This document shows positions 10,845 to 43,610 of a DNA stretch of 43,610 nucleotides, in pieces (the first letter of the stretch is position 1; every line of letters begins with the position of its first letter). The DNA is from Eggerthellaceae bacterium (lineage in GTDB: Bacteria > Actinomycetota > Coriobacteriia > Coriobacteriales > Eggerthellaceae). The position numbers were made by a program, and so were the translations under genes. Where the stretch lies: positions 1 to 43,610 of the forward strand of contig SUUI01000016.1 in assembly GCA_015062605.1 (NCBI GenBank). Reading direction: 5' to 3'. The notes under the pieces were generated by a model. The model ran no database searches. It was not told the DNA's origin and saw only the letters and a program-made list of their open reading frames with translations.

Positions 10845-10852
10845 GCGACCGA

Positions 10853-11400: not shown

Positions 11401-11438
11401 TTGTAAAACAACAAATGCAAGCCGAGCTGCATTCGTTG
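11401..11438 (-). terminator. Intrinsic terminator of the ddl operon
   Basis: CAACAAATGCA (11409-11419) pairs with TGCATTCGTTG (11428-11438) with one mismatch; the minus strand continues TTTTACAAAG. Confidence 0.65.
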
Positions 11439-11465
11439 AGGGATGTGTTGGTTCGATGCGTCTTC

Positions 11466-12443: not shown

Positions 12444-12454
12444 AACCGTTCCTT

Positions 12455-13717: not shown

Positions 13718-13723
13718 AATCAG

Positions 13724-14161
13724 TTAGGGTAGCAGAACATCGTTCAGAATATCCACGGAATCCGTCAGTGCCTTCAATACCACCAAATCATCTGCATAAT
13801 CGAGCTCGATTTTCGCACGTCCTTCGCTTGCGTTAATCCACTCGGTGGTTCCACGGAAGCTGCGCGTACGCATGCGGGCATTAGGGCTTTGCGCTGCTTG
13901 TTGCACCTGAAGATCGATGACTAGATGCTCAAGAACATGCGGAATCGATGTATGGTCCATAACATCCCCAAAGGTCGGACCCTTTTCATTGATGCAATCA
14001 TGATCGGGAAGCGACGGCATACGGCGAATGAGACGTTGGGCGATTTCGGGCGTCGTGAAACGCGGAGCAAGCGGATCGAGTGCGATGTAGCACACCACCC
14101 TATCCTTACGCACGATAATGCGTTGTACGCTGACGGCCCGCATCGCGCTAAGATGACCCAT
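13724..14161 (-). CDS. Uncharacterised protein, possible cyanophycin-synthetase N-terminal-like domain
   Basis: 145 residues, no membrane segment. The middle HVLEHLVIDLQ, followed by FRGTTEWI and a strand RAKIELDYADDLVVLKALTD, has the order of elements seen in the N-terminal domain of cyanophycin synthetases (H-x-x-E-H-x-x-x-x-L-Q, then a GRTRE-like turn and an F-E-Y-x-D-E strand). That likeness is by eye and weak. The start is either ATG 14161, overlapping the upstream stop by 14 nt, or ATG 14143; neither has a strong ribosome binding site, consistent with coupling. Its neighbours (ATP-grasp ligase, aminotransferase) would fit an amino-acid ligase context. Confidence 0.6.
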   Translation of the reverse strand: MGHLSAMRAVSVQRIIVRKDRVVCYIALDPLAPRFTTPEIAQRLIRRMPSLPDHDCINEKGPTFGDVMDHTSIPHVLEHLVIDLQVQQAAQSPNARMRTRSFRGTTEWINASEGRAKIELDYADDLVVLKALTDSVDILNDVLLP

Positions 14162-15638: not shown

Positions 15639-15641
15639 ACG

Positions 15642-16925
15642 TTATTTCTGAGGGCCGATAACCGTTACGCCACCCATGTAGGGAACGAGTACGTCGGGCA
15701 CGGTAATCGTGCCGTCGGCATTCTGGTAATTCTCTATGATTGCGGCCATGGTGCGTCCAACCGCAAGACCGCTTCCGTTTAGCGTGTGAACATAACGCGT
15801 GCCCTTGAAGTTAGCAGGATCGCGGTATTTGATGTTCGCACGACGAGCTTGGAAGTCCCAGCAATCGCTGCAAGAAGAGATTTCCTTGTAACCGTTGTAG
15901 CATGGCAGCCACACTTCAAGGTCGTAGGTCTTGCATGCGGAGAATCCGATATCACCCGTGCACAGACTGATGACACGATATGGCAACTCTAGCTTCTGCA
16001 AGATGTTCTCGGCATCCTCGACCATCGCCTCGAGGTCATCGAGGCTCTCTTCGGGCTTCGCGAATTTGACCATCTCGACTTTGCTGAACTGATGCACACG
16101 AATGATGCCACGCGTATCGCGACCGGCACTACCCGCTTCTTCACGGAAGCAGGGCGTGAAACCGCAATATTTGAGAGGCAGCTGCTCCGCATCGAGAACC
16201 TCACCTGCATGGATGTTGGTAAGCTGAACCTCGGCGGTCGGAATCAGATACAGGCCTCCAGTGGTCTTAAATAGATCTTCTTCGAACTTGGGCAATTGCC
16301 CTGTACCCGTAAGCGTCGTCGCGTTCGCGAGAGCCGGACACCACCATTCCTTATACCCACGGGAAGTGTGCGTATCAGCCATGAAATTGATAAGGGAGCG
16401 CTCTAGGCGCGCACCCAGACCGCCTAGCAGATAGAAGCGGCTTTCAGCCAGCTTCACACCGCGTTCGAAATCGATGATTCCCAATTCGGGACCCAGATCC
16501 CAATGCGCCTTCGCCTCGAAGTCGAACGTACGAGGGGTACCCCAACGCCTGACTTCAGGATTGTCGTTCTCGTCGCGTCCAACAGGCGTGGTTTCGTGTG
16601 GCATATTCGGAGTCGCCATCAACATCTCGCTTAAGGCGGCTTCGGCCTCTTCGCGCACCTTGGATGCCTCTTCCAGCTGCGCGTTGATTTGACGCACTTG
16701 CTCCTTGGCTGCCTCGGCTTCTTCCTTTAAGCCCTGACCCATCATCTTGCCGATGGATTTCGAGGTCGCATTACGCTTTGCCTGCAACTCCTCGGCAGCG
16801 GCAATCGCCGTGCGACGCTCTTCGTCGAGTTGGGCGAAGCGCTCGCCATCCCAAGAGAAATTGCGGTTCGCCATCGCTTCAGCGACAGCATCGAGGTTTT
16901 CGCGAACGAATTTTGCATCCAACAT
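15642..16925 (-). CDS. serS: Serine--tRNA ligase
   Basis: 427-residue class II aminoacyl-tRNA synthetase charging tRNA-Ser. The N-terminal long coiled-coil arm (residues about 25-105) binds the variable arm of the tRNA. Motif 2 appears as [23 protein letters not shown] and motif 3 as [28 protein letters not shown] is the serine-site loop. Length is normal for bacteria. ATG at 16925 follows AAAAGGAGCG. Four genes (14148, 13724, 12455, 11466) follow closely in the same direction, so serS may lead the operon. Confidence 0.98.
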
Positions 16926-20645: not shown

Positions 20646-20700
20646 CGTTTTCCTTCCTGATGCACGCGCGCTGTGATTATCTGTCTTTTACGCACATCGA

Positions 20701-20723
20701 GCGAAAGGGTTGAGCCCTTTCGC
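20701..20723 (-). terminator. Hairpin downstream of guanine deaminase, possible terminator
   Basis: GCGAAAGGG and CCCTTTCGC with a 5-nt loop, 57 nt after the stop at 20780. There is no T-tract, so the call is tentative. Confidence 0.45.
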
Positions 20724-20779
20724 CCTCAGTATACAAGTTTGCAGCCGCATACCTGGTCAAAACCACGAAACGCTCTCTT

Positions 20780-22162
20780 TTACGTGGCATCCTTGTCGCG
20801 AACCAGCTTGCCTTGGCAATAGATCTGGCGGATGTTCTCGGGCGTTGAGAGGTAAAGGATGCGAGCCAAACGATCTGCAGGCGAATTGAATACGCCGAAG
20901 CCCGTCAGGTTGGAATCAGGCAGCTTGGTGTCGATGACTTGCAAATCGAACGCACGACCAGGCTCGAATGTTCCCACGGGCAGACCGAGCGCTTCTCCGC
21001 CGCCGGCGGTCGCCATCCAGAATGCATCGACAAGCGAAACACGCGTATTGTTGCCGAGACCGCCGCGTCTGTCTTCCGGCAGCATGGCATCGACGCCCGT
21101 TTCGAGCAGGCGAGAGACGAGCACAGCTTGACGGATATTCTCGTACATGCTCGGGCTGTATCCTCCCGAAATGTCAGTACCTATGCCGACACGGATACCC
21201 TGTCTGCGGAAACGCGCAATCGGCGCGACAGCGCTCGAGAAATACGAGTTCGCCATCGGGCAATGGGCGATAACCGCTCCGACCTTAGCGAACAGCTCTC
21301 CTTCTTCTTCGGTGAGGTATGGGCAATGAGCCATGATGGACCGCTCATTGACAAGTCCGAAATCATAGAGCACGTACGGGTCGGTTTTACCGAAACGCTC
21401 GTATACGACATCGTGCTCCCATTGGCCTTCATTGCAGTGCGTCTGGATATATGCCCCTGTCTCGGCAGCAAGATCTCCCAAGCCCTTGAGCACCTCGTCA
21501 GTGCAGCTTGGAACGAAGCGCGGTGTGATGACTGGCCATACGCCAGCCCAGCTCGAACGCCCGATATCTTCGACCTCATGGATAAGCGTCTCGGTGTCAA
21601 CGACAGCTTGGGCGGCAGAAGCATCGCGATAATAATCTGGATTGGCATTCGGGTCGTCCATGACGGTTTTACCAACCAACGCGCGCTGGCCCTTGTCGGA
21701 GCAGATCTGCGCAAGCTGGATGCTGGATTCCAGATGCGCACTGCCCAAATACACCGTCGTCGTCGAACCACGTGCGATCAGCTGCTCGACCAGATGTTCA
21801 TAGACCTTGCGGCTGAATTCCAGATCCTTGAATTTAGATTCAAGAGGGAACGTACGCTGCTCGAGCCATAAATACAGCGGTTCATCGAGAGCGAGAGAAG
21901 CCTGCGGCCATTGCGGAGCATGCACGTGGATGTCAACAAAACCCGGGAGGCCATAGCGGTCGAAACCCAACTCTACCAGAATGTTTTGGTCACGATATTC
22001 GCGTAAAAGACTCGGCTGCTCCGGATCGTTGCGTTTGACGACGCGCTCGATATAGCCCTTGTCGTTTACTTCGATGAGCGCAAATTCCAAGAACTCGAAT
22101 TCGCCGTATACAGGAGCATGGAAAAACGATCCGTAGAACGCTTTCACTACTTCGCGATTCAT
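20780..22162 (-). CDS. guaD: Guanine deaminase
   Basis: 460-residue amidohydrolase that turns guanine into xanthine and ammonia. PGFVDIHVHAPQW holds the metal-binding HxH and the family's HAPQ signature; QTHCNEGQWE, MAHCPYLTEEEG and GIGTDISGGYSPSM carry the other metal ligands and the catalytic Asp. Length is typical. ATG 22162 follows GGAGAGGGAT. It lies next to adenine deaminase and xanthine phosphoribosyltransferase on the same strand. Together they turn guanine and adenine into xanthine and hypoxanthine and salvage xanthine to XMP. Confidence 0.92.
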   Translation of the reverse strand: MNREVVKAFYGSFFHAPVYGEFEFLEFALIEVNDKGYIERVVKRNDPEQPSLLREYRDQNILVELGFDRYGLPGFVDIHVHAPQWPQASLALDEPLYLWLEQRTFPLESKFKDLEFSRKVYEHLVEQLIARGSTTTVYLGSAHLESSIQLAQICSDKGQRALVGKTVMDDPNANPDYYRDASAAQAVVDTETLIHEVEDIGRSSWAGVWPVITPRFVPSCTDEVLKGLGDLAAETGAYIQTHCNEGQWEHDVVYERFGKTDPYVLYDFGLVNERSIMAHCPYLTEEEGELFAKVGAVIAHCPMANSYFSSAVAPIARFRRQGIRVGIGTDISGGYSPSMYENIRQAVLVSRLLETGVDAMLPEDRRGGLGNNTRVSLVDAFWMATAGGGEALGLPVGTFEPGRAFDLQVIDTKLPDSNLTGFGVFNSPADRLARILYLSTPENIRQIYCQGKLVRDKDAT

Positions 22163-22192
22163 ATCCCTCTCCGTTCACAACTAATTGGAAGG

Positions 22193-22226
22193 CGGGGCGC
22201 CTGCATGTTTTTGTGCAGGCGCCCCG
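22193..22226 (-). terminator. Strong hairpin downstream of adenine deaminase
   Basis: 13-bp perfect stem (CGGGGCGCCTGCA / TGCAGGCGCCCCG) with an 8-nt T-rich loop, 15 nt past the stop. The minus strand lacks a long T-tract after the stem, but the position fits a terminator. Confidence 0.75.
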
Positions 22227-22240
22227 TCTGATAAAGCGCA

Positions 22241-24010
22241 TTATTCGGCAACGCCGAGAATCGGATCCTCGATTTGCATGGTCAGCACGTTGATGAAACC
22301 ATGGTCGGTGATGGCCAAAGTCGGCAGTGCGGCCAAGCAGATGAACGACAGGAACATGCAGGTGATCGGGATGATGCAACCGCGCTCGGCAAGCGCGGCG
22401 TTCAGCTCTTCCTTCTCGGCTGCAAGTTCTTCGCAGGACAGGTCGGACAGAAGACCGCACACGGGATACGGAATATCCTTCACGACTTCGCCGTTCTCAA
22501 CGAAGCACTGACCGCCTTGGATGTCGACCAAGTGGTTGACGGCGACTGCCATGTCCTCGAAATTCGTGCCCATGACGATGATGTTGTGATTGTCATGGCC
22601 GACTGTCGAAGCGATGGCGCCGCTCTGCAGATGGAAGCCGCCCATGAACGCCTTGCCGATGTTGCCGTTCTTGCCGTAGCGCTCGACTTGGGCGATGTAC
22701 AAGACGTCTTGCGAAACGTCACATTGCACGTAACCGTCCACGACATCCAGCTCGACCTCGCGCGGTTGCGTGATCGGAATCCACGGCAGCGTATCCATGC
22801 ACTTGACCTTGACCTTCTTGGCGCCTTCGGGAGCGGCCATCTTGAAGCTATCGGGCGTGATGGGGTTCAGGAGCGTGCACGTGTTCAGGACGCACGGCTT
22901 GTGCTCGGCAACGGGATAATGAACGAGCGACTCGCCGTTCTCGGCGACCTTCTTACCCGCTGACCACGTAGCCTTGACCTCGAAGGTCTCAGCCGTATCG
23001 CCTGCAACGAGGTTGATGTCGGCACGCTTTCCCGGAGCAAGGCCACCGATGGTGCGGCCCATGTGGAAACTGCGAGCCGCATTGACAGTGACCATTTGAA
23101 TTGCCTTGATGAATGGCAAGCCTGCCTCGAGGGCAACCTTGATGTGGTGATCCATATGACCAGTATGAGCGAGGTCGATGCAATGCAGGTCATCGGAGAC
23201 GATGGAGGCGAACGTGGTGTCGACGCCGCTCTCAACCACGTATTTCACTTGGTCGGCAAGCGTACGAGCCGCAGAGGATTCGCGTAGCATCGCGTAGCAG
23301 CCGCCACGCAGGCGCTCGACGATTTCCGGACCGTCGAGGGCTTCGTGGTCGTTATTCACGCCGGCAGCAAGGCAAGCATTCAGCGCCGGACCCTTCATGT
23401 CGGGCAGGTGACCCGCTGCGACCAGTCCAGGCTTCTTCACAGCATCGATAGAATCCAGAAGGTCGGGGAAGCCAGCGAGAATGTAATGGCCGACGACCTC
23501 GGAAATGCCGACTGCGTCCTCACGCTCGAGCGCCTTCTTGATGATTTCGGCATTGAACACGCCACCGGAAGTCTCGAGCAACGGCGAGAACGGAACGTGC
23601 GAAGGAACGACGAAGAACATGTTCAGATCGGTGATCTCGTTCTCCTCGATGATTGCCTCGATACCCTCAAGACCGGACACAACGCCGATCTCGTGCAGGT
23701 CGGTCATGATCGTAGTGGTGCCATGCTTGAGCACAGCCTCGGCAAACGAACGGATGGACAAATCGGAGCTTTCGGGGTGGACGTGCGCGTCGATGAAGCC
23801 CGGCGTGATGAACATGCCACCTGCATCGACAACCTGCGTGGACGCACCCTTGCAATACTCCACGTCACCGACCGCGGCGATCCTATCGTCAACAATCGCG
23901 ACGCCACCATCGTAAATCTCGCCCGTGTAGACGTTGACGATTTTGCCATTTTCGATGACAACGTCAGCCGGGCCCTTTCCGCCAGCAACTGCCAGCAACT
24001 TCATGTTCAT
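22241..24010 (-). CDS. ade: Adenine deaminase
   Basis: 589-residue amidohydrolase of the bacterial adenine deaminase (Ade) type, converting adenine to hypoxanthine. ITPGFIDAHVHPESS carries the HxH metal ligands; AAGHLPDMKGPALNACLAAG, NNDHEALDG and SDDLHCIDL supply the remaining metal and base residues. The C-terminal domain from about 400 is the Ade-specific beta domain (TVGHDNHNIIVMGTNFEDMA). I chose ATG 24010, preceded by GGAGGATTCGA, and not the long frame to 24277, which is the shadow of xpt. Confidence 0.93.
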   Translation of the reverse strand: MNMKLLAVAGGKGPADVVIENGKIVNVYTGEIYDGGVAIVDDRIAAVGDVEYCKGASTQVVDAGGMFITPGFIDAHVHPESSDLSIRSFAEAVLKHGTTTIMTDLHEIGVVSGLEGIEAIIEENEITDLNMFFVVPSHVPFSPLLETSGGVFNAEIIKKALEREDAVGISEVVGHYILAGFPDLLDSIDAVKKPGLVAAGHLPDMKGPALNACLAAGVNNDHEALDGPEIVERLRGGCYAMLRESSAARTLADQVKYVVESGVDTTFASIVSDDLHCIDLAHTGHMDHHIKVALEAGLPFIKAIQMVTVNAARSFHMGRTIGGLAPGKRADINLVAGDTAETFEVKATWSAGKKVAENGESLVHYPVAEHKPCVLNTCTLLNPITPDSFKMAAPEGAKKVKVKCMDTLPWIPITQPREVELDVVDGYVQCDVSQDVLYIAQVERYGKNGNIGKAFMGGFHLQSGAIASTVGHDNHNIIVMGTNFEDMAVAVNHLVDIQGGQCFVENGEVVKDIPYPVCGLLSDLSCEELAAEKEELNAALAERGCIIPITCMFLSFICLAALPTLAITDHGFINVLTMQIEDPILGVAE

Positions 24011-24056
24011 TCGAATCCTCCTTGCTCCTACTCCCGTTTTTCCATTACCTATGAAA

Positions 24057-24084
24057 ATGCCGCCTGCACACAGCAGACGGCATC
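24057..24084 (-). terminator. Intrinsic terminator of xpt
   Basis: ATGCCGTCTGC (minus strand) pairs with GCAGGCGGCAT with one G-U, followed by TTTTCAT. Confidence 0.75.
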
Positions 24085-24089
24085 TGACG

Positions 24090-24668
24090 CTAATGCCTGA
24101 ACACGATTTCGCCCGTAGCCGCATCCATCGACTCGACGATAGCGAGCGATTCCACGCGGTATCCACGGTCCCGCAACTCCTGGCCCCCCTTTTGGAAGCC
24201 CTTCTCGACTGCGATACCGATACCCTCGATCGTTGCTCCTGCCTGTTCGACCAAATCGACAAGGCCGAGCGCCGCACAGCCGTTCGCCAGGAAATCGTCG
24301 ATGATCAGCACGTGGTCGTCTGCTGTGAGAAAGCGAGCTGACACGATGACATCGTACACACGCTTGTGTGTGAACGACTCGACTTTTGTGGCGTATAACG
24401 TGCCGTCAAGGTTGACGCTTTGGGCTTTCTTGGCGAAAAGCACGGGAACATGGAAATAACGCGCTGTAATGGACGCGATGGCGATGCCGCTCGCTTCGAT
24501 GGTGAGGATCTTAGTGACAGGAGCGTCCGCGAAACGCCGCGCGAACTCCGCGCCAAGCTCCTCGAATAGGTCGATATCGAGCTGGTGGTTGAGGAAGTTA
24601 TCGACCTTGAGGATATTGCCTTCTCGGACGATACCGTCACGGCGAATTCGCTCTTCAAGCAGCTCCAT
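24090..24668 (-). CDS. xpt: Xanthine phosphoribosyltransferase
   Basis: 192-residue type I phosphoribosyltransferase making XMP from xanthine and PRPP. The order [31 protein letters not shown] (substrate hood typical of Xpt) and [20 protein letters not shown] (PRPP-binding motif) is specific for this family. ATG 24668 follows GAGGGGTGGTT; an in-frame GTG at 24674 is less likely. The upstream region does not show the conserved core of a purine riboswitch that often controls xpt elsewhere. Confidence 0.94.
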
Positions 24669-24791
24669 AACCACCCCTCAAGTGCTTGTTTTTCTCACGT
24701 GTCAAGTGTACTTCACAAGACGTGCGAAGTCCATGATTTGAACAACGACAAACCCTGTTCCAACGCAAGAATCAAGCATCGGACAGCAGGC

Positions 24792-24816
24792 GGTTTACGC
24801 GGTTACCGCATAAACC
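24792..24816 (-). terminator. Hairpin overlapping the thiD stop codon
   Basis: GGTTTA-c-GCGG-TTA-CCGC-a-TAAACC, with the thiD stop in the loop. There is no T-tract; it may be a weak terminator or an mRNA 3'-end structure. Confidence 0.35.
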
Positions 24817-25630
24817 AGAAATGGTCGAGAGGGCCGCTTCCTTTGCCGAGGTCAAGCCATGCTTCCAGCGCATTTGTCAGGTATTCTTTAGCCTTACCAA
24901 CGGCCTTGAGCACGTCGTAGCCCGAAGCAAGGCCGGCGGCAATCGCGCTCGACAGAGTGCAACCCGTGCCGTGCGTATTAGGGTTGTCCACCCGCACGCC
25001 GTAGTACCACACAGCAGAGCCGTCTGGCAGGCAGAGCACGTCATCCGCGCACACTCCCGCTTCGTTTTCGGGACGTTCAGGCCCTCTCAGCCCGTGTCCG
25101 CCTTTGACGAGCACGGCTGCGCCGCACGCATCCGACACGAGCCGACCCGCGCGGACCGCATCGTCGGCTGTACGGATTTCGAAACCGGCCAGCACCTGCG
25201 CTTCCGCAAGGTTGGGCGTGATGATATCGGCATGGGGGAAAAGATATGTGCGCATTGCCTCAACGGCGCCATCCGCGGCAAGCGCCGATCCACTCGTCGC
25301 CACCATTACAGGGTCAACCACGATGTTTTCGGCTGCATGCTCTTTGAGCGACTCACCGATGACCCGAGCGATCTCGGCCGATGAAACCATGCCGACTTTG
25401 ATCGCGTCGGGACGGATATCGGCAAAGACAGCATCGATTTGGGCTTTCACAATGTCAGGCGGAATATCGTGAACGGCAGTCACGCCCATGGTGTTTTGCG
25501 CGGTGATGGCAGTGACGGCCGTTTGGGCGAACAACCCCATAGCCTGAATGGCTTTGATATCGGCTTGGATTCCTGCACCACCGCTTGAATCAGAACCAGC
25601 GATGCTCAATACGCTTTTCAGGGTGCTCAT
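24803..25630 (-). CDS. thiD: Hydroxymethylpyrimidine (phosphate) kinase
   Basis: 275-residue ribokinase-fold enzyme that phosphorylates HMP and HMP-P for thiamine synthesis. LSIAGSDSSGGAGIQADIKA is the N-terminal substrate motif, DPVMVATSGSAL and ITPNLAEAQVLA are the ATP-side strands, and NPNTHGTGCTLSSAIAAGLA is the anion hole with the catalytic residues. ATG 25630 overlaps the thiE stop by 4 nt (ATGA) and follows GAAAGGACC. It is the last gene of the cytX-thiM-thiE-thiD operon. Confidence 0.95.
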   Translation of the reverse strand: MSTLKSVLSIAGSDSSGGAGIQADIKAIQAMGLFAQTAVTAITAQNTMGVTAVHDIPPDIVKAQIDAVFADIRPDAIKVGMVSSAEIARVIGESLKEHAAENIVVDPVMVATSGSALAADGAVEAMRTYLFPHADIITPNLAEAQVLAGFEIRTADDAVRAGRLVSDACGAAVLVKGGHGLRGPERPENEAGVCADDVLCLPDGSAVWYYGVRVDNPNTHGTGCTLSSAIAAGLASGYDVLKAVGKAKEYLTNALEAWLDLGKGSGPLDHFWFMR

Positions 25631-26280
25631 ACAAAGGTCCTTTCACACTGCTTTCTTAATGTTGCTGCTGCTTTTTTACAATCAGGGGCTGCGAAAATGG
25701 CCGAAACAACTGCGGCACCAACCATACCCGTCCCCTTAAACTGTGCGATCGTGGACGCATTGAGGCCGCCGATGCCGACTACGGGGATGTCTACCACCCT
25801 GCAAATCTCGCACAGCTCCTCTTTGGTCACATCTACCGCTTCGGGCTTGGTTGCCGTAGGGAGGAGCGCACCGACGCCCAAGTAGTCTGCTCCTGCCTGC
25901 TGCGCCGCGAGTGCCTGGGCGACCGTCTGTGCGGAAACGCCGACGATCTTGTCCGGACCCAGCAGCGCTCGCGCCTTTTCACAAGCCATATCGGATTGGC
26001 CCACATGGACGCCATCTGCATCGATGGCTAGGGCAACGTCGACGTTGTCGTTGATTACGAAGGGCACGCCCGCCTGCTCGCAGATAGGCTTGAGCTCACG
26101 AGCAAGAGCTAAAAACTCATCAGGCGAGACGTTCTTTTCACGCAGCTGAACGAAAGTCGCACCTCCATCGATAGCCTCCTGAACGCAACTCGAAAGATTG
26201 CGCCCGCAAAGCCAAGAACGATCGGTGATCGCGTATAAGAGCAGATGCTCGCGTAAACCCTGCACAGAAAAGCTTGTCAT
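25627..26280 (-). CDS. thiE: Thiamine-phosphate synthase
   Basis: 217-residue TIM-barrel enzyme that condenses HMP-PP with hydroxyethylthiazole phosphate into thiamine phosphate. GATFVQLREKN (diphosphate site), PFVINDNVDVALAIDADGVHVGQ, VGVSAQT and DYLGVGALLPTATK are diagnostic motifs in the expected order. ATG 26280 lies just after the thiM stop; an upstream in-frame ATG at 26292 would place the start on the ribosome binding site of the gene itself. It overlaps thiD by 4 nt. Confidence 0.95.
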   Translation of the reverse strand: MTSFSVQGLREHLLLYAITDRSWLCGRNLSSCVQEAIDGGATFVQLREKNVSPDEFLALARELKPICEQAGVPFVINDNVDVALAIDADGVHVGQSDMACEKARALLGPDKIVGVSAQTVAQALAAQQAGADYLGVGALLPTATKPEAVDVTKEELCEICRVVDIPVVGIGGLNASTIAQFKGTGMVGAAVVSAIFAAPDCKKAAATLRKQCERTFV

Positions 26281-26281
26281 T

Positions 26282-27115
26282 CTATTGCACATCCTCTACC
26301 AAGGCACGGTTGGCAAGCGTCTCACCATCCAGTTTATACAGGGCATCGATCAGGTAGGTGCGGAAGCTTAAGTTGCCATCGAGCTCGCCCATGCGCTCTT
26401 CTGCAAGATTTCCCGCGACCCCCGTTGTGCACACGGCGCCCAGCGCAGCGAGCAATGCATCATCATTTGCAACAGCAAAGGCCCCCGTGATGCACGAGAG
26501 CATGCAGCCCGCGCCCGTGATACGTCCTTGAAGCTTACTGCCGTTGCGCACGGCGAAGGATCGCGTGGAATCTGCCACGATATCGATAGGCCCAGTGATG
26601 GCTACGACTGAACCCGTCCGCGCTGCGAAATCGCGCGCGAACGCAGCGCTGGCTTCCAAGTTCTCGTCAGTAACGATGTCATCCGGGCACACGTCGACTC
26701 CTCGCGTAGACGCCGCACCGTTTGCCAGCGCCTTGATTTCGCTGATATTGCCTCGAACGATGGCAATCGGATAGGCATCGAGGAGGTCGGCTGCCGTCTG
26801 CGTGCGTAAGGCCGAGGCTCCGGCTCCTACAGGATCGAGCACAATGGGGTGTCCCAACTCCGTAGCCACCTTTGCTGCTTCGTGCATGCCTGCAATCGTG
26901 CTTTGATTCAGCGTGCCGATATTGATGACCAGGCCTCCGCAGATGGTCTGGATGTCTCCCACATCCAGCGGCTCGTCGCTCATAATCGGACTCGCATCGA
27001 TTGCAAGCAGAGCGTTCGCGCAATCGTTTACGGTCACGTAGTTCGTGATGTTATGAACGAGAGGATGCGTGGTGCGCACCCTTTCCAGAGATGTCTTGAT
27101 GCTAGTAGTGTCCAT
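26282..27115 (-). CDS. thiM: Hydroxyethylthiazole kinase
   Basis: 277-residue salvage kinase phosphorylating 4-methyl-5-(2-hydroxyethyl)thiazole. HPLVHNITNYVTVNDCANALLA is the family N-terminal signature; VLDPVGAGASALR and GRITGAGCMLSCITGAF are the substrate and phosphate loops, the latter containing the catalytic Cys of ThiM. ATG 27115 follows AAAGGAGCC. With thiE and thiD it completes salvage of both halves of thiamine; no de novo thiC or thiG is in the window. Confidence 0.95.
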   Translation of the reverse strand: MDTTSIKTSLERVRTTHPLVHNITNYVTVNDCANALLAIDASPIMSDEPLDVGDIQTICGGLVINIGTLNQSTIAGMHEAAKVATELGHPIVLDPVGAGASALRTQTAADLLDAYPIAIVRGNISEIKALANGAASTRGVDVCPDDIVTDENLEASAAFARDFAARTGSVVAITGPIDIVADSTRSFAVRNGSKLQGRITGAGCMLSCITGAFAVANDDALLAALGAVCTTGVAGNLAEERMGELDGNLSFRTYLIDALYKLDGETLANRALVEDVQ

Positions 27116-27136
27116 GCAGGCTCCTTTCGTTTTCTT

Positions 27137-28396
27137 TCAGCCGTTTGTGTGACGATTGCGCCTGCGAACCAAGCCGACCAGCAGCGTTGCCAGCGCCACA
27201 ATGATCATCACAGGCAGTGTGTTCCCAAGTACGAAATCCCAGCTCATCGAGAAGCGGTACAGCACGAAACCCGCCAACCACAACACGAGATTGGGCGCAT
27301 TGGCGGGGTTTTTGCTTGAATCGTTGCCAAAAAGCAGATGGTCGGTAAGCAGTATTGCGACCATAGGCGCGAACACCGAGCCGATGAGATAGAGGAAGTT
27401 CTCGAAATCGCCTACGGGGGCTAAGGCGGCAGCGATAGCGCCGATGACCGCAACGCCCACTCCTAGCCATTTCGCAGGCAAGCTGGAGTGAATGGCTGCA
27501 GCTGAGACACCCGCGGATTGCGCGTCAAGGAAGGTGGTGGTAACCGTCGAGAGCACGACAACCAAAATACCGACAACACCCAACCCTGCGCCAGAAAGAA
27601 TCTCCGCTATATCGCCGGAGCCCGCAAAAAGGGCCATGCCTAAACCAATGGAAAACATCCAAATGCTACCCAGAGAGTAGGTGGTGGCAGCAGTAAGCGA
27701 ACCAGCCAGTGGCTTCTTTGCTTCGCGTGTGTAGTCGCCGACAACTGGAAGCCACGATAGGGGCATCGCGACCGCCAATTCCACGGCCGCCCCGAAGGAA
27801 AGCGGAGCATCAGTCCCAAGCGACGTGCCATCTGCGTAAAACACCGTAGTGCTGATGACGATCGTCAGAATGAAAAGGCATATGGATGCGACCGCTTGGA
27901 TGCGGCTCATGTTGCGCACGCCGATAGCTATCCACACAACGATGAGCGCCCCGATGATGGCGCACCAGCCAACCAGACCCACAACAGGAACCAAGAACGC
28001 TGCTGCGGCAGCACCCGATGCCACCATGATGGCGGTCCAACCCACCAGCTGCACGACGTTCGCAATCGAAAACACGAGCGAACCGTAACGCCCAAACGAT
28101 AGTTTTACCGCATCCATCGCACCTAAGCCTGTTTTCGCGCTTACATACGCCATAAGGGCGAACAAGCAAAAGCCGATGGCATGCCCAATCAGAATTGCCT
28201 GAAGGCCGACCATGAAGCCCAGGGGTGCAAAGAAGGTTCCTGTAAGGATTTCTGCTAAGGAAACCGATGCTCCGAACCACACGAGCCCCAATGCGGGAGT
28301 GGCAAGCACGCGTTTTCCGATGTGTTCACCTGCAGGGGCGAACTCGCCACGAGATGCATCTTTACGCGCTGCAGCATGTGCTGTGATGGTATTCAT
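27137..28396 (-). CDS. cytX: Putative hydroxymethylpyrimidine transporter CytX (NCS1 family)
   Basis: 419-residue polytopic permease of the cytosine/purine (NCS1) family, with about twelve membrane helices beginning at PALGLVWFGASVSLAEILTG, the usual helix 1 of this group. The operon position, first gene behind a TPP riboswitch and followed by thiM, thiE and thiD, is the standard context for CytX, the predicted HMP importer, and is stronger evidence than the sequence itself. ATG 28396 is 5-10 nt from GGAGGGA, which is the conserved 3' end of the riboswitch, so ligand binding can hide the ribosome binding site. Confidence 0.9.
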   Translation of the reverse strand: MNTITAHAAARKDASRGEFAPAGEHIGKRVLATPALGLVWFGASVSLAEILTGTFFAPLGFMVGLQAILIGHAIGFCLFALMAYVSAKTGLGAMDAVKLSFGRYGSLVFSIANVVQLVGWTAIMVASGAAAAAFLVPVVGLVGWCAIIGALIVVWIAIGVRNMSRIQAVASICLFILTIVISTTVFYADGTSLGTDAPLSFGAAVELAVAMPLSWLPVVGDYTREAKKPLAGSLTAATTYSLGSIWMFSIGLGMALFAGSGDIAEILSGAGLGVVGILVVVLSTVTTTFLDAQSAGVSAAAIHSSLPAKWLGVGVAVIGAIAAALAPVGDFENFLYLIGSVFAPMVAILLTDHLLFGNDSSKNPANAPNLVLWLAGFVLYRFSMSWDFVLGNTLPVMIIVALATLLVGLVRRRNRHTNG

Positions 28397-28401
28397 GTAG
28401 A

Positions 28402-28492
28402 TCTCCCTCCGCCGGCATTACCCGGATCAGGTTCTTAGGGTCGCGACCTTGCGGCGTCGCCTCTCAGCCGGGCCTATTCCCAGCTCCCCTTT
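28402..28492 (-). promoter_or_regulatory. TPP riboswitch (THI element)
   Basis: On the minus strand: GGGGAGC, then GGCTGAGAGG, a variable P3 arm, GACCCTAAGAACCTGATC, CGGGTAATGCCGGCG and finally GAGGGA. CTGAGA and CCTGATC...TAATGCCGGCG are the thiamine pyrophosphate-binding cores. The 3' end doubles as the ribosome binding site of cytX, which points to control of translation. Confidence 0.96.
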
Positions 28493-28693
28493 TCGTGTGA
28501 CAAGTCGGCTTATCGAAAAGACGCCCTTGTCTTTGGCCGTCAGTTTACACGCAATATGCTTACCTATCCAGAACGAACGGACGCATGGCGCTTTGTCGCC
28601 TTTTTGCGGTTCACCCTTATATCCATTGATGCCACAAAAGAACCGGGGGACGCGCAGAGAGAGCTCTGGCGCCATCAAACAAAAGAATTCCCC

Positions 28694-28722
28694 TTGCGAG
28701 CGTTCATGCAGTTCGCTATACT
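28694..28722 (+). promoter_or_regulatory. Promoter of tRNA-Thr
   Basis: -35 TTGCGA (28694-28699), 17-nt spacer, -10 TATACT (28717-28722), 24 nt upstream of the tRNA. Confidence 0.75.
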
Positions 28723-28746
28723 TACTGCCTGCGCGAAAGCGCTTTT

Positions 28747-28822
28747 GCCAATGTGGCTCAGTTGGTAGAGCAACGCACTCGTAATGCGTAGGTCAGCGGT
28801 TCGAGTCCGCTCATTGGCTCCA
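28747..28822 (+). tRNA. tRNA-Thr (anticodon CGT), integration target
   Basis: 76 nt with encoded CCA. Acceptor GCCAATG pairs with CATTGGC; the anticodon stem-loop ACGCA-CTCGTAA-TGCGT gives CGT; the T-arm is GCGGTTCGAGTCCGC. Its 3' half from the anticodon loop is the start of the 62-bp att repeat, so the tRNA is kept intact after integration. Confidence 0.96.
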
Positions 28823-28839
28823 CAAAATCGCAGGTCAGA
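28778..28839 (+). repeat. attL, left copy of the 62-bp direct repeat
   Basis: Identical over 62 bp to 43282-43343. It runs from the anticodon loop of tRNA-Thr through the CCA end and into the left arm of the tRNA terminator hairpin. Confidence 0.93.
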
Positions 28840-28868
28840 CAGCAAATTTGTCTGACCTGCTTTCTTTC
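28830..28868 (+). terminator. Intrinsic terminator of tRNA-Thr (element-side copy)
   Basis: GCAGGTCAGACA (28830-28841) and TGTCTGACCTGC (28849-28860) form a 12-bp stem with a 7-nt loop, followed by TTTCTTTC. The 5' arm lies mostly in the att repeat; the 3' arm is outside it. Confidence 0.85.
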
Positions 28869-28870
28869 AT

Positions 28871-29266
28871 TTACCCTTTATAAATCGATTTGGGTAGAAT
28901 TTTGGGTAGAACGTATATTTGTCGCGAAAATTTTTCATGTTTTCGCGACAAATAGGTTAGAGCGTTTTTAAAGAACGTACGCCGCCCCAACTGTACGTAA
29001 ATTCCACATGCCAACCATGATGGAAGGCTTTCAATGGTTAAGGCTTGGTTTGTTTGACTACTCGGACTTTCCGTATCTTGGAATCGCGGCTCGGCATCTG
29101 CCATCGTAGGATAAAGCCGGATGCGAACCCTGGTGCCGCCTTTGCGCTTGGTGTATCTGATGGTGTAGAAGCCACTGGCGTACTTGAGCACCATGGCCTC
29201 CTCGATAAGGCCCTTGTTGGCGCCCGAGAGGTAGACCGTCTGACCCGGTGAGTACTTGCTTTGCAT
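28871..29266 (-). CDS. Uncharacterised protein at the left end of the element
   Basis: 131 residues. The first 65 (SPGQTVYLSGANKGLIEEAM to VRIRLYP) look like a small beta-barrel with a KOW/SH3-like turn pattern. The rest is basic and its codons overlap the tandem TTTGGGTAGAA repeats (LPKILPKS) and a 13-bp inverted repeat at 28918-28952, so the C-terminus may be constrained by DNA function and not protein function. ATG 29266 follows GGAATCACC. It is 18 bp downstream of the CoiA-like gene. No family is recognised. Confidence 0.55.
   Translation of the reverse strand: MQSKYSPGQTVYLSGANKGLIEEAMVLKYASGFYTIRYTKRKGGTRVRIRLYPTMADAEPRFQDTESPSSQTNQALTIESLPSWLACGIYVQLGRRTFFKNALTYLSRKHEKFSRQIYVLPKILPKSIYKG
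28889..28911. repeat. Tandem TTTGGGTAGAA repeats, putative integrase arm sites (left)
   Basis: Two exact copies of TTTGGGTAGAA (28889-28899, 28901-28911) with a 12-nt period. The same pair, with the same period, occurs near the right end at 43164-43186. Confidence 0.6.
28918..28952. repeat. 13-bp perfect inverted repeat near the left end
   Basis: TTTGTCGCGAAAA and TTTTCGCGACAAA separated by 9 nt. It lies inside the 3' part of the small gene at 28871 and next to the putative arm sites. Possible excisionase or accessory factor site. Confidence 0.6.
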
Positions 29267-37910: not shown

Positions 37911-39038
37911 TCATCTTTCGTGACGGGGTCCCTCGTGCTTCAGCTCGCGCTCTTGTCGCAAACCTTCGGGCCCCCTGCTAATCTCCGGTAAAATCTTCCC
38001 GCGATTCAGCGCATGCGCTTGCTTCTCTTCCGCACGCTTGGGCGTCCTCTCCTTTGCTCGTTGCGGCTTACCCCTTTCCTGCTTGCGCGAGATCGCCTTG
38101 TCCCTCCGCATCTCCGCGACGAGCTCGTTCCGCCTGGCATCACCTTGGCCTTCCAGGCGCCCCCGCTCGATCTCGCGCCTGAGCTCGGTGGCGAGCCTCT
38201 TCTCGCGGATGCGCTCCTTGCCCCTCTGGTCGACCTTGAGCGAATCGGCGAAGACCCGCGAGAGCTCCTTCGCCGAGAGAGATCGGTCGAGGCGATCGGC
38301 GCGCACGGCATGGTCGCGGTTGTCGCGATCCACGAGATAGATGCGGTTCTTCCTGACCTCCATGTCGATGTCGGCCATGCGGAGGCACCCTTGGAACTCC
38401 CTCAAGGTTCCGGATTGCTCCCTCGCCTGTAGCGCCATGTCCCTCATGACGGCCTTCCACCCGTCCGCACCGCGGATCTCCATCTGGCGCTCGGCGTGCG
38501 TCATGCGGCGCTCCTGATGGCTCCGCAGGCGCTCGCCGACGCGGTAGTCCTCGATGCGGGAGAGACCCATCCTGCCGGCGATCTCCTGGGCGCTGTTGTG
38601 CAGCTCGCGGACGCGCTCGTTGGACACGTTCATCTTCCGGCCGCGCTCGAGATCTATCGAGTTCACGATCACGTGCGCGTGGACGATGCCATCCTCGCCG
38701 TGCTGCGCCCTTCCCCTGTTGTCGTCATGGAGCACGATGACGACCTCGTTCTCGGGGAAGTTGCGCTCCGCCCACTTCCAGGCGAGCTCCCTCATTTGGA
38801 CGGCCGTTGCGCGGTCGCCCTCCGAGGGGCTTATGACGTACTCCCTGTACGTCACGTCCCCGCGCAGCGCGTACGATGCGCGGCTCGCGTCGAGCTCCTT
38901 ATCCCAGGAGTCGGGTCTCACCACGTTGATCGTGTCCCGACAGATGTGCCGGCAATCCCTCTCGAGGTAAGCCCGCCTCTCGCGGCAGGATGCGTGGTGG
39001 CCTCCCTTGTGGAAGGTCTGCGCCTTAACGATCGGCAT
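37911..39038 (-). CDS. MobP-type relaxase (relaxase/mobilisation nuclease domain)
   Basis: 375 residues starting MPIVKAQTFHKGGHHASCRE at ATG 39038 (GGAGGGGG upstream). The HUH motif is VHAHVIVNSIDLERGRKM; upstream it has the YREYVISPSEGD strand and the WAERNFPENEVVIVLHDDN segment of Pfam Relaxase proteins. The C-terminal 150 residues are very basic and helical. It would nick at oriT and lead the strand during mobilisation. The gene overlaps the mobC-like gene by 14 nt. Base composition is much more GC-rich than the cassette array. Confidence 0.88.
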   Translation of the reverse strand: MPIVKAQTFHKGGHHASCRERRAYLERDCRHICRDTINVVRPDSWDKELDASRASYALRGDVTYREYVISPSEGDRATAVQMRELAWKWAERNFPENEVVIVLHDDNRGRAQHGEDGIVHAHVIVNSIDLERGRKMNVSNERVRELHNSAQEIAGRMGLSRIEDYRVGERLRSHQERRMTHAERQMEIRGADGWKAVMRDMALQAREQSGTLREFQGCLRMADIDMEVRKNRIYLVDRDNRDHAVRADRLDRSLSAKELSRVFADSLKVDQRGKERIREKRLATELRREIERGRLEGQGDARRNELVAEMRRDKAISRKQERGKPQRAKERTPKRAEEKQAHALNRGKILPEISRGPEGLRQERELKHEGPRHER

Positions 39039-39369
39039 GGCGGCCCCCTCCGAGCGCACCAATCACCGCATCGACGATGCGGGCGTTGGCCGCGGCGATA
39101 TCGGCCAGCGCCCCCTCATCAGCGCGCGTGAACTTGCCGACGTTGGCCGCATGCGCGATCTGGTTGAGGTTCACGCCCTGCCGCTTGAGCTCGCGCAGCA
39201 TCCGCCCGAGCACGTCCCTCTCCGCCGTGAAGACGTGCCCTGGGTCGGATATGAGCGCGCGCACGTACTCGCTCTCCGTGACTTCCGCCTCCGCCGCGAA
39301 GGCGGAGAGCTTGGCCGCCTCCCCGGCGGTCAGGCGGAAGTTCTTGCGGACGTCGTGCGGCGCGCTCAT
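39025..39369 (-). CDS. MobC-like relaxosome protein
   Basis: 114 residues from ATG 39369 (GGGGAGGCGCGG upstream). KNFRLTAGEAAKLSAFAAEA looks like a ribbon-helix-helix N-terminus, and RELKRQGVNLNQIAHAANVG is the conserved MobC core (L-x-x-x-G-x-N-L-N-Q-I-A-x-x-x-N). MobC-type proteins bind oriT and help the relaxase open the DNA. It directly follows the candidate oriT. Confidence 0.85.
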   Translation of the reverse strand: MSAPHDVRKNFRLTAGEAAKLSAFAAEAEVTESEYVRALISDPGHVFTAERDVLGRMLRELKRQGVNLNQIAHAANVGKFTRADEGALADIAAANARIVDAVIGALGGGRHADR

Positions 39370-39414
39370 CCGCGCCTCCCCGAAAAGGGGAGCGCGCCGG
39401 GCCCCGGAGGGAAC

Positions 39415-39720
39415 CCACATGCCGAAGGCATGCGGTAGTCCCGCCGGGGAGTGCGGGGTGCAGGGGCGGCGGCCCCTGCCAAGGGGAAACGGACGAGCCG
39501 AAGCGACGTACGTTTCCGTTCCTTGCCCCGATTGGGCATCGTGACTACATAGGGAAATCGGGGTGAGCGCATCATGCGCGCCGAACGCGATGAACGCGCC
39601 CTATGGAAGCGTTCAAAGAGCGCGGATGTGCGCATGATGCGCGAGAGCCGACAGGCGCGCGAGAGGCCGCGAGGCGGCATCTCGCGAGATGTCGGCGGGG
39701 CGACCGCAGATGAACCGCAG
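39415..39720. other. Candidate oriT region
   Basis: Non-coding, GC-rich, directly upstream of the mobC-like gene. It has several inverted repeats: CATGCC-GAA-GGCATG, GCAGGGGC-GGCG-GCCCCTGC, GGAAACG...CGTTTCC, and GCGCATCATGCGC...GCGCATGATGCGC about 65 nt apart. Location and structure fit an origin of transfer; the nic site is not recognised. Confidence 0.55.
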
Positions 39721-39765
39721 CCCCCTATGATGTTTACGACCTTGACCTCCGACATCTGGATCACC

Positions 39766-40650
39766 CTACTCGAACAGATGGAGCTCGGGAGTGTAGGTCA
39801 TCTCCAAATCGATGCCTGAAGCGCCGTTGCGATTCTTCTTGAGATGCCCCGTTACCGGTCTGACGCGACGACCCTGCAGTGACGACTCGGTCTCCAGATG
39901 CAGGTAGATGTCAGCAGCATGGAGGATATGCGCCGACCCGCGAGGCTCGTTTTGCTGTGAAAGCGACGTTAGAGCAATGATGGGAACATGCTCGGTATGC
40001 GCCAGTGAGGCAAGCTGCTTTGCCACGTGGTCAAGCAATTCCACAGTCGACGAGCCATCGAGCTTTGAGCTGCGGAGCTGCTGAAGGTAGTCGACGACCA
40101 AGGCGCATTCGACCCCGTTTCGGCGATAGCTGGAAATCAGCTCTCGGAGCCCTTCGATGGTGAACGAGTAGTCGTTCGTGCCATTGAGGGTTGTGTCGTC
40201 TGCGATGCACAGGTTCGAAGCTATTGCAGCGAACCTAGATTTCGTGCAGGAGATGAACACCTCGTCGTCATGCCTGCGCTCGCACAGGCGCTCCTCTGTA
40301 AGGCGTACATCCTTTTGAACCTGATTCGCGAAGCTCAAGAAGGCTCTGAGAAAGATCTGGTCGGGGGCCAGCTCCCCCGTCAGGTAGATTACCTTCCTGG
40401 TTTTTGCAAGGTTGACGGAGATGTCGCATGCCAAATCGGTTTTACCGACGCCGGATCTGGCACCGACGATCATGAGCTCGGAGGCGATGCCCCCTTGGGT
40501 TGCTGCATCGAGCGTCGGCACGCCCGTGCTGCATTTGGGACGACGCTCATCGATGACGCGATCGAGATTCTTGATCATCGATAAGCAGGAGTGTAATCCG
40601 TCGTCGTCCAACGCCCACGAACGGGCGTCGTCGTATACGCACTGCTCCAT
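39766..40650 (-). CDS. DnaB-type RecA-fold ATPase / helicase-like protein
   Basis: 294 residues. Walker A GARSGVGKTDLACDI, then VIYLTGELAPDQIFLR (the DnaB SLEM/GEL motif region), Walker B CALVVDYLQQL, ALTSLSQQNEPRGSAHILHA (DnaB H4-like) and VTGHLKKNRNGASGIDL. It lacks the DnaB N-terminal domain and is shorter than a replicative helicase. Such proteins occur on plasmids and mobile elements as replication helicases, which may mean that the excised circle can replicate. ATG 40650 is preceded by AAAGGG. Confidence 0.85.
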   Translation of the reverse strand: MEQCVYDDARSWALDDDGLHSCLSMIKNLDRVIDERRPKCSTGVPTLDAATQGGIASELMIVGARSGVGKTDLACDISVNLAKTRKVIYLTGELAPDQIFLRAFLSFANQVQKDVRLTEERLCERRHDDEVFISCTKSRFAAIASNLCIADDTTLNGTNDYSFTIEGLRELISSYRRNGVECALVVDYLQQLRSSKLDGSSTVELLDHVAKQLASLAHTEHVPIIALTSLSQQNEPRGSAHILHAADIYLHLETESSLQGRRVRPVTGHLKKNRNGASGIDLEMTYTPELHLFE

Positions 40651-40682
40651 AGCAATACACCCTTTCTTCTTTCCAATTGTCG

Positions 40683-40797
40683 AAGGGTGCGTTAAACTAT
40701 GGTTTGCTCTGAGTTTTCGCACCCTTGCGAAGACTTACCTGTCGCTGATTTGTTGCCGCAAATCAGCGACTTTCTTTTTTACCGGATGACCATCCGG
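40683..40797 (+). ncRNA. Structured leader / candidate antisense RNA next to the helicase gene
   Basis: Three inverted repeats in 115 bp: AAGGGTGCG...CGCACCCTT (40683-40726), GTCGCTGATTTG-TTGCCG-CAAATCAGCGAC (40741-40770) directly followed by TTTCTTTTTT on the plus strand, and CCGGATG-ac-CATCCGG (40782-40797). The plus-strand T-tract means a transcript running opposite to the helicase gene would end here, as in plasmid copy-control countertranscripts. No promoter is certain. Confidence 0.4.
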
Positions 40798-41845: not shown

Positions 41846-43069
41846 CTACAAGGAACGGTCCTGCTCTGTGAGCATCTGGGCATATAGCTCTGAGGCGCGA
41901 TATTGATTTTCCTCAATCGGGTGAACGTAATGCTGCGCAGTGACGGTTGCGTCCTCGTGACGCAGAAGCTTTGAGGCGGTTTCAAGGTCCACTCCGAGCG
42001 TCCCGATAAGGGCAGTCGGGAGAATGTCCCTGAACATGTTGGGGCACAACCCAACATATCCATTTCCGCGCTCGTAGATAATTCCATCTTGCTCGAACGT
42101 GTGCGTTACGTTCGTATACTCGCCGAAACCGTTATCGGCACAGAAATTACGGAACCAGCGACCGTAATTCGTTCCATCTATGCGCTTCCCTGCTTCGTTT
42201 GTAGCCACAGGAGTCTTTTCTGTGCAATCGATTCCGAATGCGTTCATCCACCTAGTTTGAATAGGTCGCCATGTCTTCAGATACTCCGCCAAAACGTAAT
42301 CCATCGGAACGCTGGCTTTGCTCGCCCGGCTTTTTGGAGCCCTTAGCTCCTTATCGTTTGAGTATTGATGACGAATGAATATCGATTCCTTCTTGAAATC
42401 AATGTCCTCCCAGCTGAGTCCGTAAGCTTCACCCGGTCTCATTCCGGTATGCAAAAGAATCTGAGCGATGACGATATTGCCCGAAACCTCTTGCTTGAAC
42501 AGAAGCTGTTGAAAAGATCTTAGCCTCTCGACATCCAGGTAGTCCTTCTCCTTCGGGACCGGCTTAGGAATGACAACCTTCTGCGCAGGATTCTTTCTGA
42601 TGACTCCATCCTCTACGGCCTCGTTGAGAATCTGCCTCAGCCGTTTATTAAGCTGGAAGGTGTTGCCTGGGGTCAGCCAATCGCTGTTCGCCTCATACGT
42701 TTCCTTTATCATGATTGGCGTCAGGCCTCTAATCTTCACATGGGGAAACAAGCGCTTGAGGCTCTTAACGTCTAAGCATTCCCTCTCGGCCGTTCGTGGA
42801 GATCTATGTGCACCCTTGCGCAGGGTCATCCATTTGTCAATGTATGCTTCCAGGTATTCCAGGTCTCTGTTGGGAATTCCGTTCTCTTCAAGCTCGCGGC
42901 GATATTCCTCAATCGCTTTATCGAGCTCCCACTGGCTCTTTGCGTGAACCGTCTTCCTTGGAGTGTAGGTGTATTTCCCAGGACGATCGGGATCTGGTCC
43001 AGTGTTGAACCTTATTGAGTACGTGTCTCCGCCCCGATAATAGACAGAGCCCTTGCCTTTTATTTCCAC
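41846..43069 (-). CDS. Tyrosine recombinase (integrase)
   Basis: 407 residues from GTG 43069 (AAGGAGAACCC upstream). The N-terminal arm-binding domain begins GKGSVYYRGGDTYSIRFNTG; a core-binding helical domain follows (KRLFPHVKIRGLTPIMIKE). Catalytic domain: LLHTGMRPGEAYGLSWEDID (box I Arg), a K-loop with KSRASKASVPM, NMFRDILPTALI where H-x-x-R-H is expected, LLRHEDATVTAQHYVH with the box II His and the nucleophilic Tyr. The first His of H-x-x-R reads Asn. It must have cut and joined the 62-bp att sites. It starts about 210 bp from attR. Confidence 0.9.
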   Translation of the reverse strand: MEIKGKGSVYYRGGDTYSIRFNTGPDPDRPGKYTYTPRKTVHAKSQWELDKAIEEYRRELEENGIPNRDLEYLEAYIDKWMTLRKGAHRSPRTAERECLDVKSLKRLFPHVKIRGLTPIMIKETYEANSDWLTPGNTFQLNKRLRQILNEAVEDGVIRKNPAQKVVIPKPVPKEKDYLDVERLRSFQQLLFKQEVSGNIVIAQILLHTGMRPGEAYGLSWEDIDFKKESIFIRHQYSNDKELRAPKSRASKASVPMDYVLAEYLKTWRPIQTRWMNAFGIDCTEKTPVATNEAGKRIDGTNYGRWFRNFCADNGFGEYTNVTHTFEQDGIIYERGNGYVGLCPNMFRDILPTALIGTLGVDLETASKLLRHEDATVTAQHYVHPIEENQYRASELYAQMLTEQDRSL

Positions 43070-43078
43070 GGGTTCTCC

Positions 43079-43140
43079 TTGTGCTAGGCTCGCCTTGCTG
43101 GGCTCTTGGATGGCCCAAGCCAAGGCCGAGCCTAGCACAA
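43079..43140. repeat. Long hairpin in the integrase leader
   Basis: TTGTGCTAGGCTCG (43079-43092) and its perfect complement (43127-43140); inside, CCTTG/CAAGG and GGGC/GCCC extend the stem. It lies between the integrase promoter region and its ribosome binding site. Confidence 0.75.
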
Positions 43141-43142
43141 AA

Positions 43143-43186
43143 TTCTACCCATTGCAAATTTTCTTTGGGTAGAAATTTGGGTAGAG
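43143..43186. repeat. Putative integrase arm sites (right)
   Basis: TTTGGGTAGAA (43164-43174) and TTTGGGTAGAG (43176-43186), 12-nt period as at the left end, plus an inverted TTCTACCCATT at 43143. Confidence 0.6.
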
Positions 43187-43281
43187 AGTAAAAAGGTGGT
43201 TTTTTGTTTCCGCAGGTCAAATTGATATTGTATTCTATCATATTCTGTTGGATTCCAATGTAAACGGCTGTTTTTCCCGCC

Positions 43282-43343
43282 CTCGTAATGCGTAGGTCAG
43301 CGGTTCGAGTCCGCTCATTGGCTCCACAAAATCGCAGGTCAGA
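43282..43343 (+). repeat. attR, right copy of the 62-bp direct repeat (tRNA-Thr 3' fragment)
   Basis: Identical to 28778-28839. It contains the 3' half of tRNA-Thr (43282-43326) without its 5' half, so it is not a working tRNA. Confidence 0.93.
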
Positions 43344-43372
43344 GCATGTTTTTGCCCTGACCTCTTTTTCTA
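43335..43372 (+). terminator. Terminator hairpin at attR
   Basis: AGGTCAG...CTGACCT followed by CTTTTTC. The 5' arm is in the att repeat; the 3' arm and loop differ from the attL copy. Confidence 0.7.
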
Positions 43373-43384
43373 TTATCGAAAAGT

Positions 43385-43405
43385 GGGGATATTTTCGGGG
43401 ATATT
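43385..43405. repeat. Tandem GGGGATATT repeats outside attR
   Basis: Two exact copies of GGGGATATT (43385-43393, 43397-43405), period 12 nt, 42 nt past the att repeat. This mirrors the position and spacing of the TTTGGGTAGAA pair at the left end. Confidence 0.5.
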
Positions 43406-43490
43406 CGCACGGAATAGGCGTTTTATTAGGAAGGTTTGAGGTATGTCAATACCGATTGATTCCCGGGTCGGGTTTCGTTTCGGCGGATCG

Positions 43491-43610
43491 TCATCGCTCG
43501 GCTTGTAATCGCGGCTCGCGCGCCGCTTGCGTTGCATCATCTGGGAGGAGTGCCACGGAAAGCCTCAGGTAGAACAGCTCGTCTTGGTCTTTGAAGTCGA
43601 TTCCCGTCAG
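43491..43610 (-). CDS. 3' end of an unidentified gene (5' part outside window)
   Basis: 39 codons and a TGA stop, open to the right edge: TGIDFKDQDELFYLRLSVAL, then LPDDATQAAREPRLQAER. It reads like a real helical C-terminus (acidic first, then Arg/Ala/Gln-rich). Too short to name. It is either the first chromosomal gene right of the island or part of a second element. Confidence 0.4.
   Translation of the reverse strand: MTGIDFKDQDELFYLRLSVALLPDDATQAAREPRLQAER

Follow-up and report, generated by a model that had tools for sequence, protein, structure and literature searches.

A likely second element in tandem at a tRNA-Thr gene, recognised from its left end at the edge of an Eggerthellaceae contig

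The window analysed here, a stretch of 43,610 nucleotides, is the whole of contig C6 (G000:C6, 43610 bp) of an Eggerthellaceae bacterium whose 1.70 Mb genome is assembled into 31 contigs. Behind a tRNA-Thr gene it carries an integrated element (element 1, 28.8-43.3 kb), and the short sequence that follows the right att copy of this element raises the question of what it belongs to. The right end of the window is considered likely to be the left end of a second tRNA-Thr element (element 2), standing in tandem with element 1, both having been inserted by tyrosine integrases. The features concerned are the following.

28747..28822, + strand: tRNA-Thr(CGT), the target gene (ARAGORN, Rfam), whose 3′ part supplies the left att copy of the array
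28774..28839, + strand: att copy 1 (attL of element 1), 98% over 66 nt against 43278-43343
28889..28911, + strand: putative left arm pair of element 1, TTTGGGTAGAA twice, 12-nt period
41846..43138, − strand: integrase of element 1 (Phage_integrase PF00589, E 3.5e-12)
43164..43186, + strand: putative right arm pair of element 1, TTTGGGTAGAA then TTTGGGTAGAG, 12-nt period
43278..43343, + strand: att copy 2, between the elements; 43282-43326 equals C25:920-964 in 45/45 nt
43336..43363, + strand: terminator-like hairpin at the likely left end of element 2, -15.3 kcal/mol, 0/200 shuffles as stable
43385..43405, + strand: putative left arm pair of element 2, GGGGATATT twice, 12-nt period
43491..43610, − strand: open frame cut by the contig end, the last 39 residues and stop of an unassigned protein; tests gave no integrase C-terminus

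On its left the tRNA-Thr gene is adjoined by a TPP riboswitch (28387-28500, Rfam), upstream of a cytosine/purine-type permease and thiamine-synthesis genes (24803-28396). Integrases of the 11-nt class described below adjoin tRNA-Thr(CGT) in three further genomes of the family (L205, L207, L214), which makes this gene a recurrent integration site.

Repeat pairs at the ends of element 1 and of the window

A first-pass annotation of this DNA had pointed to two repeat pairs with a 12-nt period, one beginning 50 nt beyond the att repeat at attL and the other 42 nt to the right of attR, and both pairs are found in these positions. The first consists of TTTGGGTAGAA at 28889 and 28901, 50 positions beyond the attL repeat. 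A further copy of TTTGGGTAGAA lies at 43164, followed at 43176 by one with a single change, TTGGGTAGA occurring again at 43177; the recurrence of the pair at the other end of element 1 is as expected of arm sites. Element 1 also encodes a MobA/VirD2-like relaxase and a DnaB-like helicase domain (37911-40722), given which it looks mobilizable. An inverted TGGGTAGAA word at 43143-43151, about 20 nt ahead of the right arm pair and at the start of the integrase gene, is a possible sign of self-regulation.

The second pair is formed by GGGGATATT, which occurs in the window at 43385 and 43397 only, on the + strand. It starts 42 positions beyond the end of the att repeat (43343) and 58 nt beyond the CCA end of the tRNA-Thr fragment. 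With the window modelled as a first-order Markov chain, two copies of GGGGATATT spaced by 12 nt have an expectation of 4e-7 per window; an exact run of at least 9 nt appeared at period 12 in 3 of 3000 simulated 267-nt regions, and at any period from 9 to 24 in 45 of 3000. Among 138 genomes of the family, the bacterium's own included, the exact pair pattern is present at three places in two genomes, all of them this tRNA-Thr locus, and the backwards-read control gave no match in the same set. The GGGGATATT pair is very probably an integrase arm site. The hairpin ahead of it could serve as the terminator of the tRNA gene; hairpins were folded for the left ends of element 1, element 2 and the congener genome G002, and palindromes in other left ends were recognised by eye.

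The third att copy and the probable opposite end on contig C25

Since the window is a complete contig, its rightward continuation was sought on the other contigs of the genome. A search with window 42900-43610 returned five matches, namely the window itself, its left att copy, two on C25 and one on C30, the last of which (C30:51486-51558, 76%) is by eye a different tRNA gene. The strong att copies found in the genome are the two in the window and one on C25. This third tRNA-Thr 3′ end, which the first-pass annotation had predicted, lies at C25:920-964, near the left end of a 60.9-kb contig, and agrees in 45 of 45 nt. GGGGATATT is found on its inner side at C25:806, 818 and 880, in the same orientation as in the window, and the pair at 806-826 is 94% identical to the window pair over the surrounding 33 nt. 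On the outer side, a terminator-like hairpin is followed by an aldo/keto reductase. Three att copies (28774-28839, 43278-43343 and C25:920-964, the last on a separate contig) thus flank two elements. Within the window, element 1 adjoins the likely left end of element 2, whose presumed right end lies on C25, with the stretch between the two ends unassembled; the same arm repeats are found at both ends, at a fixed distance from the core. The right arm, composed of the pair and the third copy, and the attR of element 2 would accordingly be located on C25.

C25 begins within a gene, the last 54 residues of which have matches in 9 of the 138 family genomes (own included) and represent the end of a URO-D family gene, according to Pfam on the relative in G112. 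The identity of this gene end to genes from a single other genus of the family reaches 93%. Its 5′ part is not in the assembly, where the best match is a 47% paralogue on C23, so that sequence is truly missing between the contigs. The gene end is read as presumptive cargo of element 2; a different URO-D gene is located outside attR (C25:2218-3309), and URO-D genes are therefore not special to this element.

The congener G002 links the two contigs, as it has the left flank of the window (19079-28867, 83-85% identity), tRNA-Thr and the reductase end of C25 (920-2121, 80%) as neighbours in this order. Of the first 20 kb compared, the G002 stretch matches C25 up to 2121 only, which speaks against full collinearity. 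Its interval between tRNA-Thr and the reductase contains one hairpin and one GGGGATATT pair, with no second att copy. Hairpin and pair are read as the probable scar of an element of the same type, and suggest that a GGGGATATT-type element was present at the tRNA-Thr locus earlier.

The pair also marks element ends at other tRNAs, on six contigs from five other Coriobacteriia genomes. A looser pattern, GGGGATATNNNNGGGGATAT, added four places in three of the 138 family genomes (its backwards-read control gave none in this set). Two of the five, G138 (RUG13125) and G139 (Olsenella RGIG8828), were reached through a scan of genome_contigs that gave 101 stretches; ARAGORN was run on all of these, each was judged from a context of about 80 nt, and four were pursued (L030, L036, L071, L098). 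Most of the remaining 97 resembled coding repeats, which we take to be DnaJ, and any arm site in this remainder could have escaped notice. The viral contigs had no match to GGGGATATTNNNGGGGATATTCGC or to a 25-mer from the window tail, and six matches to GGGGATATTNNNGGGGATATT, in whose contexts no tRNA end was recognised by eye.

In G124, a tRNA-Ala element has the pair at both ends on a single contig (L161, about 6040-15764, about 9.6 kb). This element, with GGGGATAT arms, encodes a phage replisome-type protein (Phg_2220_C) and an IstB-like ATPase, and may be a phage satellite or a defective prophage. G138 contains a 5.4-kb tRNA-Val element (L151 11435-16846) with GGGGATAT arms, the left pair being a variant, and in G139 the left and right ends lie on two contigs with an identical tRNA-Val 3′ end, a gene near the right end giving an endolysin-family match. 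A single end was found in each of two further genomes, a left one in G129 and a right one in G115. In the latter (L162 5683-8900), the 3′ end of a tRNA-Val is repeated 3.1 kb rightward, with GGGGATAT arms at the right end and no GGGGATAT pair behind the tRNA-Val on the left side, so ends need not come as matched pairs.

The distances are shared among these ends. From the right pair to the CCA end there are 159, 159, 159, 160 and 159 nt in C25, G124, G115, G138 and G139, respectively, and a third GGGGATA at +74 is present in C25, G124 and G115 and absent in G138 and G139. The left distance is 58, 58, 62, 58, 58 and 68 nt in the window, G002, G124, G129, G138 and G139. In these distances the window and C25 agree with the left and right ends of a single element type, and we infer that one element has its ends on C6 and C25. 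These contigs are not joined by any read or further contig; as the stretch between them is missing, the physical tandem is deduced from these ends, and a second element probably stands in tandem at tRNA-Thr.

Could the two ends come from different sources, 43385 being a solo left-end scar and C25 the right end of another element or of another strain? The assembly is fragmented, with a gap exactly at this point; a solo left end occurs in G002, and the nearest tRNA to the right end in G115 has no matching left pair. Against this, the sequence after the window pair does not enter the aldo/keto flank as it does in G002, the match stopping at 43408, strong att copies are limited to those in the window and on C25, and the contamination value of the assembly is 0.62%. 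Separate origins are considered improbable on this evidence. Even less credible is that the pair is a resident repeat of the chromosome that follows tRNA-Thr and is unrelated to any element. Within the genus the pair was found in two genomes and follows tRNA-Thr in each, but the C25 pair is located inward of the third att copy, element ends in tRNA-Ala and tRNA-Val elsewhere carry the pair at the same distances, and its exact form is absent from the other 136 of the 138 family genomes.

Integrases and arm words

In the tandem reading, element 2 would have been placed by an integrase of the GGGGATAT type. Those of G124, G129, G138 and G139 share 36-46% identity along most of their length, and the integrase of element 1 is distant from them (24-31% over parts). 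An integrase C-terminus adjoins the left pair in all four left ends outside the genus (G124, G129, G138, G139); none was found in the 205 nt after the window pair. DNA alignments of window 43406-43610 with five integrase C-termini were no better than shuffles in four cases, and in the fifth, with G124 as the target, 7 of 200 shuffles were equally good, so this match was not counted as evidence. The protein frames of the same stretch matched an integrase C-terminus no better than shuffles did, and none was found in C25:1-920. The 39-residue peptide at the right end of the window and the 54-residue peptide at the left end of C25 had no match in phage records, PHROGs or Pfam.

Five integrase-domain matches are found in the genome (C27, C16, C13, C3 and element 1). 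Those of C27 and C16 are situated in the interior of long contigs and show no more than distant similarity. A query made of the 270 N-terminal residues of the G124 protein found only C13 in the genome, even at E 10. The C13 integrase, of the same class and 47% identical to that of G124, was rejected as the integrase of element 2, since it belongs to its own 4.9-kb element in tRNA-Ala(GGC) (L181 4172-9069), each end of which carries TGCGTGACA pairs, at 57 and 163 nt from the respective CCA end. This element serves as a control within the genome; with it, three words stand at element ends in one genome, TTTGGGTAGAA, TGCGTGACA and GGGGATATT. The C3 integrase (G000:C3 1-1199, L011) is cut at the contig start and 93% identical to one in G002. 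It is disfavoured, as this relative has a C-terminus that by eye is unlike the window frame; no GGGGATATT occurs in the 193 nt after the stop of the relative. On this comparison, the C3 integrase would represent another element or a remnant common to the genus.

The first-pass annotation had proposed the left end of a second element after attR, followed by a second tyrosine integrase. The former is supported by the third att copy and by the same pair and geometry beside tyrosine integrases elsewhere. The latter was not recovered, either after the pair, in C25:1-920 or, with GGGGATATT arms, anywhere in the assembly; the integrase of element 2 is either in the unassembled stretch or lost. Its loss would make element 2 a special case within the tandem reading, an integrase-less, CIME-like remnant with attL, attR and both arm sets, between which and the tRNA gene element 1 integrated later. 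Consistent with such a remnant, an integrase was not found next to the left pair, the assembly yielded none with GGGGATATT arms, the att sites are retained, G002 retains the left end only, and exactly such a route is given for many tandems in the accessible portion of PMC5704250. The missing C6-C25 stretch could nevertheless hold the integrase, and as the 5′ portion of the gene truncated at C25:1 is likewise missing, absence from the assembly proves little. A remnant of this kind is a serious possibility that falls short of being probable.

A survey covered relatives of the G124 integrase, which number 38 matches in 26 of the 138 genomes at E 1e-50 or better. Thirty of these 38 were taken as loci together with those of G138 and G139, giving 32, of which one was too short and 31 were scored (match +1, mismatch -2; a run scoring at least 8 at period 11 or 12, at most 150 nt from the integrase stop). 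Five of the 31 had been known before the survey (L190, L191, L195, L151, L152). A strong pair stands beside the integrase stop in 23 of the 31 loci, with period 12 in nine and period 11 in 14; the shuffle expectation is 0.08 and 0.06 loci, respectively, and control stretches within the integrase gene gave one locus for each period. Two further loci score 7 at period 11, and six of the 31 are without such a pair (L193, L202, L213, L215, L217, L218).

The arm words vary widely among the surveyed integrases. In eight of the nine integrases of the 12-nt class (L196, without an N-terminus, was left out), word similarity correlates with identity of the N-terminal part, defined as the stretch aligned with residues 1-100 of the G124 protein (rho 0.63, a value reached in 34 of 5000 label permutations), and not with the rest of the integrase (rho -0.17). 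Without L197, rho is 0.51 (221 of 5040 permutations). Four of the eight were found through their shared word, so the sample is not neutral. Such tracking is predicted if an N-terminal arm-binding domain reads the arm sites, and it fits the other arm specificity that the first-pass annotation had ascribed to the second element, members of the class differing in their repeat word.

Both elements would thus have been inserted by tyrosine integrases recombining at the tRNA-Thr 3′ end, the catalytic part exchanging strands there and the N-terminal domain gripping the arm pairs. The integrase responsible for element 2 would bind the GGGGATATT pair as its left arm site through its N-terminal domain, and each of the stacked elements would be excised by the integrase that reads its own word, despite their alike cores. 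Two bolder proposals, rather doubtful when taken jointly, may be added. The 11- and 12-nt arm words of the tRNA-targeting integrases of Eggerthellaceae could form a code set by the N-terminal domain, making matches between integrases and stacked elements predictable from sequence, and element 2 could lack an integrase, carry URO-D cargo between two complete arm sets and await a GGGGATAT-type integrase acting in trans.

Comparison with known systems

A short repeat pair beside a tRNA gene can reveal the end of an element even though the remainder is unassembled. Stacked elements with a common core and distinct arm words should each use their own integrase, and related integrases with differing words are natural variants in which the choice of arm sites by the N-terminus can be studied. 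The survey of arm words is the more useful by-product. A literature search found no paper on arm words in Eggerthellaceae, which is no proof of absence.

Tandem accretion and repeated arm sites are both already known, and the present locus is a well-supported further case. The accretion of ICE, IME and CIME in tandem at one tRNA gene has been described, the neighbour of an IME often being a decayed element, in the accessible portion of PMC5704250. The present locus resembles the tandems treated there in having two elements on one tRNA 3′ end with three att copies, and differs from them in that element 2 is known from its two ends alone. For the tyrosine recombinases, recognition of arm sites close to the crossover site by an N-terminal arm-binding domain is established, as stated in the consulted part of PMC8138268; compared with the recombinases covered there, the link drawn here is a co-variation of N-terminus and repeat word alone. 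Another example is found in Oenococcus oeni, whose attB sites, in the sections of PMC8074189 at hand, include a prophage and remnant in tandem, direct-repeat arm sites and integrases with diverged N-termini. The likeness lies in the stacking beside a remnant and in short direct repeats that are proposed as arm sites and tied to the integrase N-terminus. The O. oeni repeats, as described in those sections, are of 10 bp, number up to six per attP and belong to closely related integrases, whereas the repeats studied here are pairs with an 11- or 12-nt period, and their many words are spread across a bacterial family.
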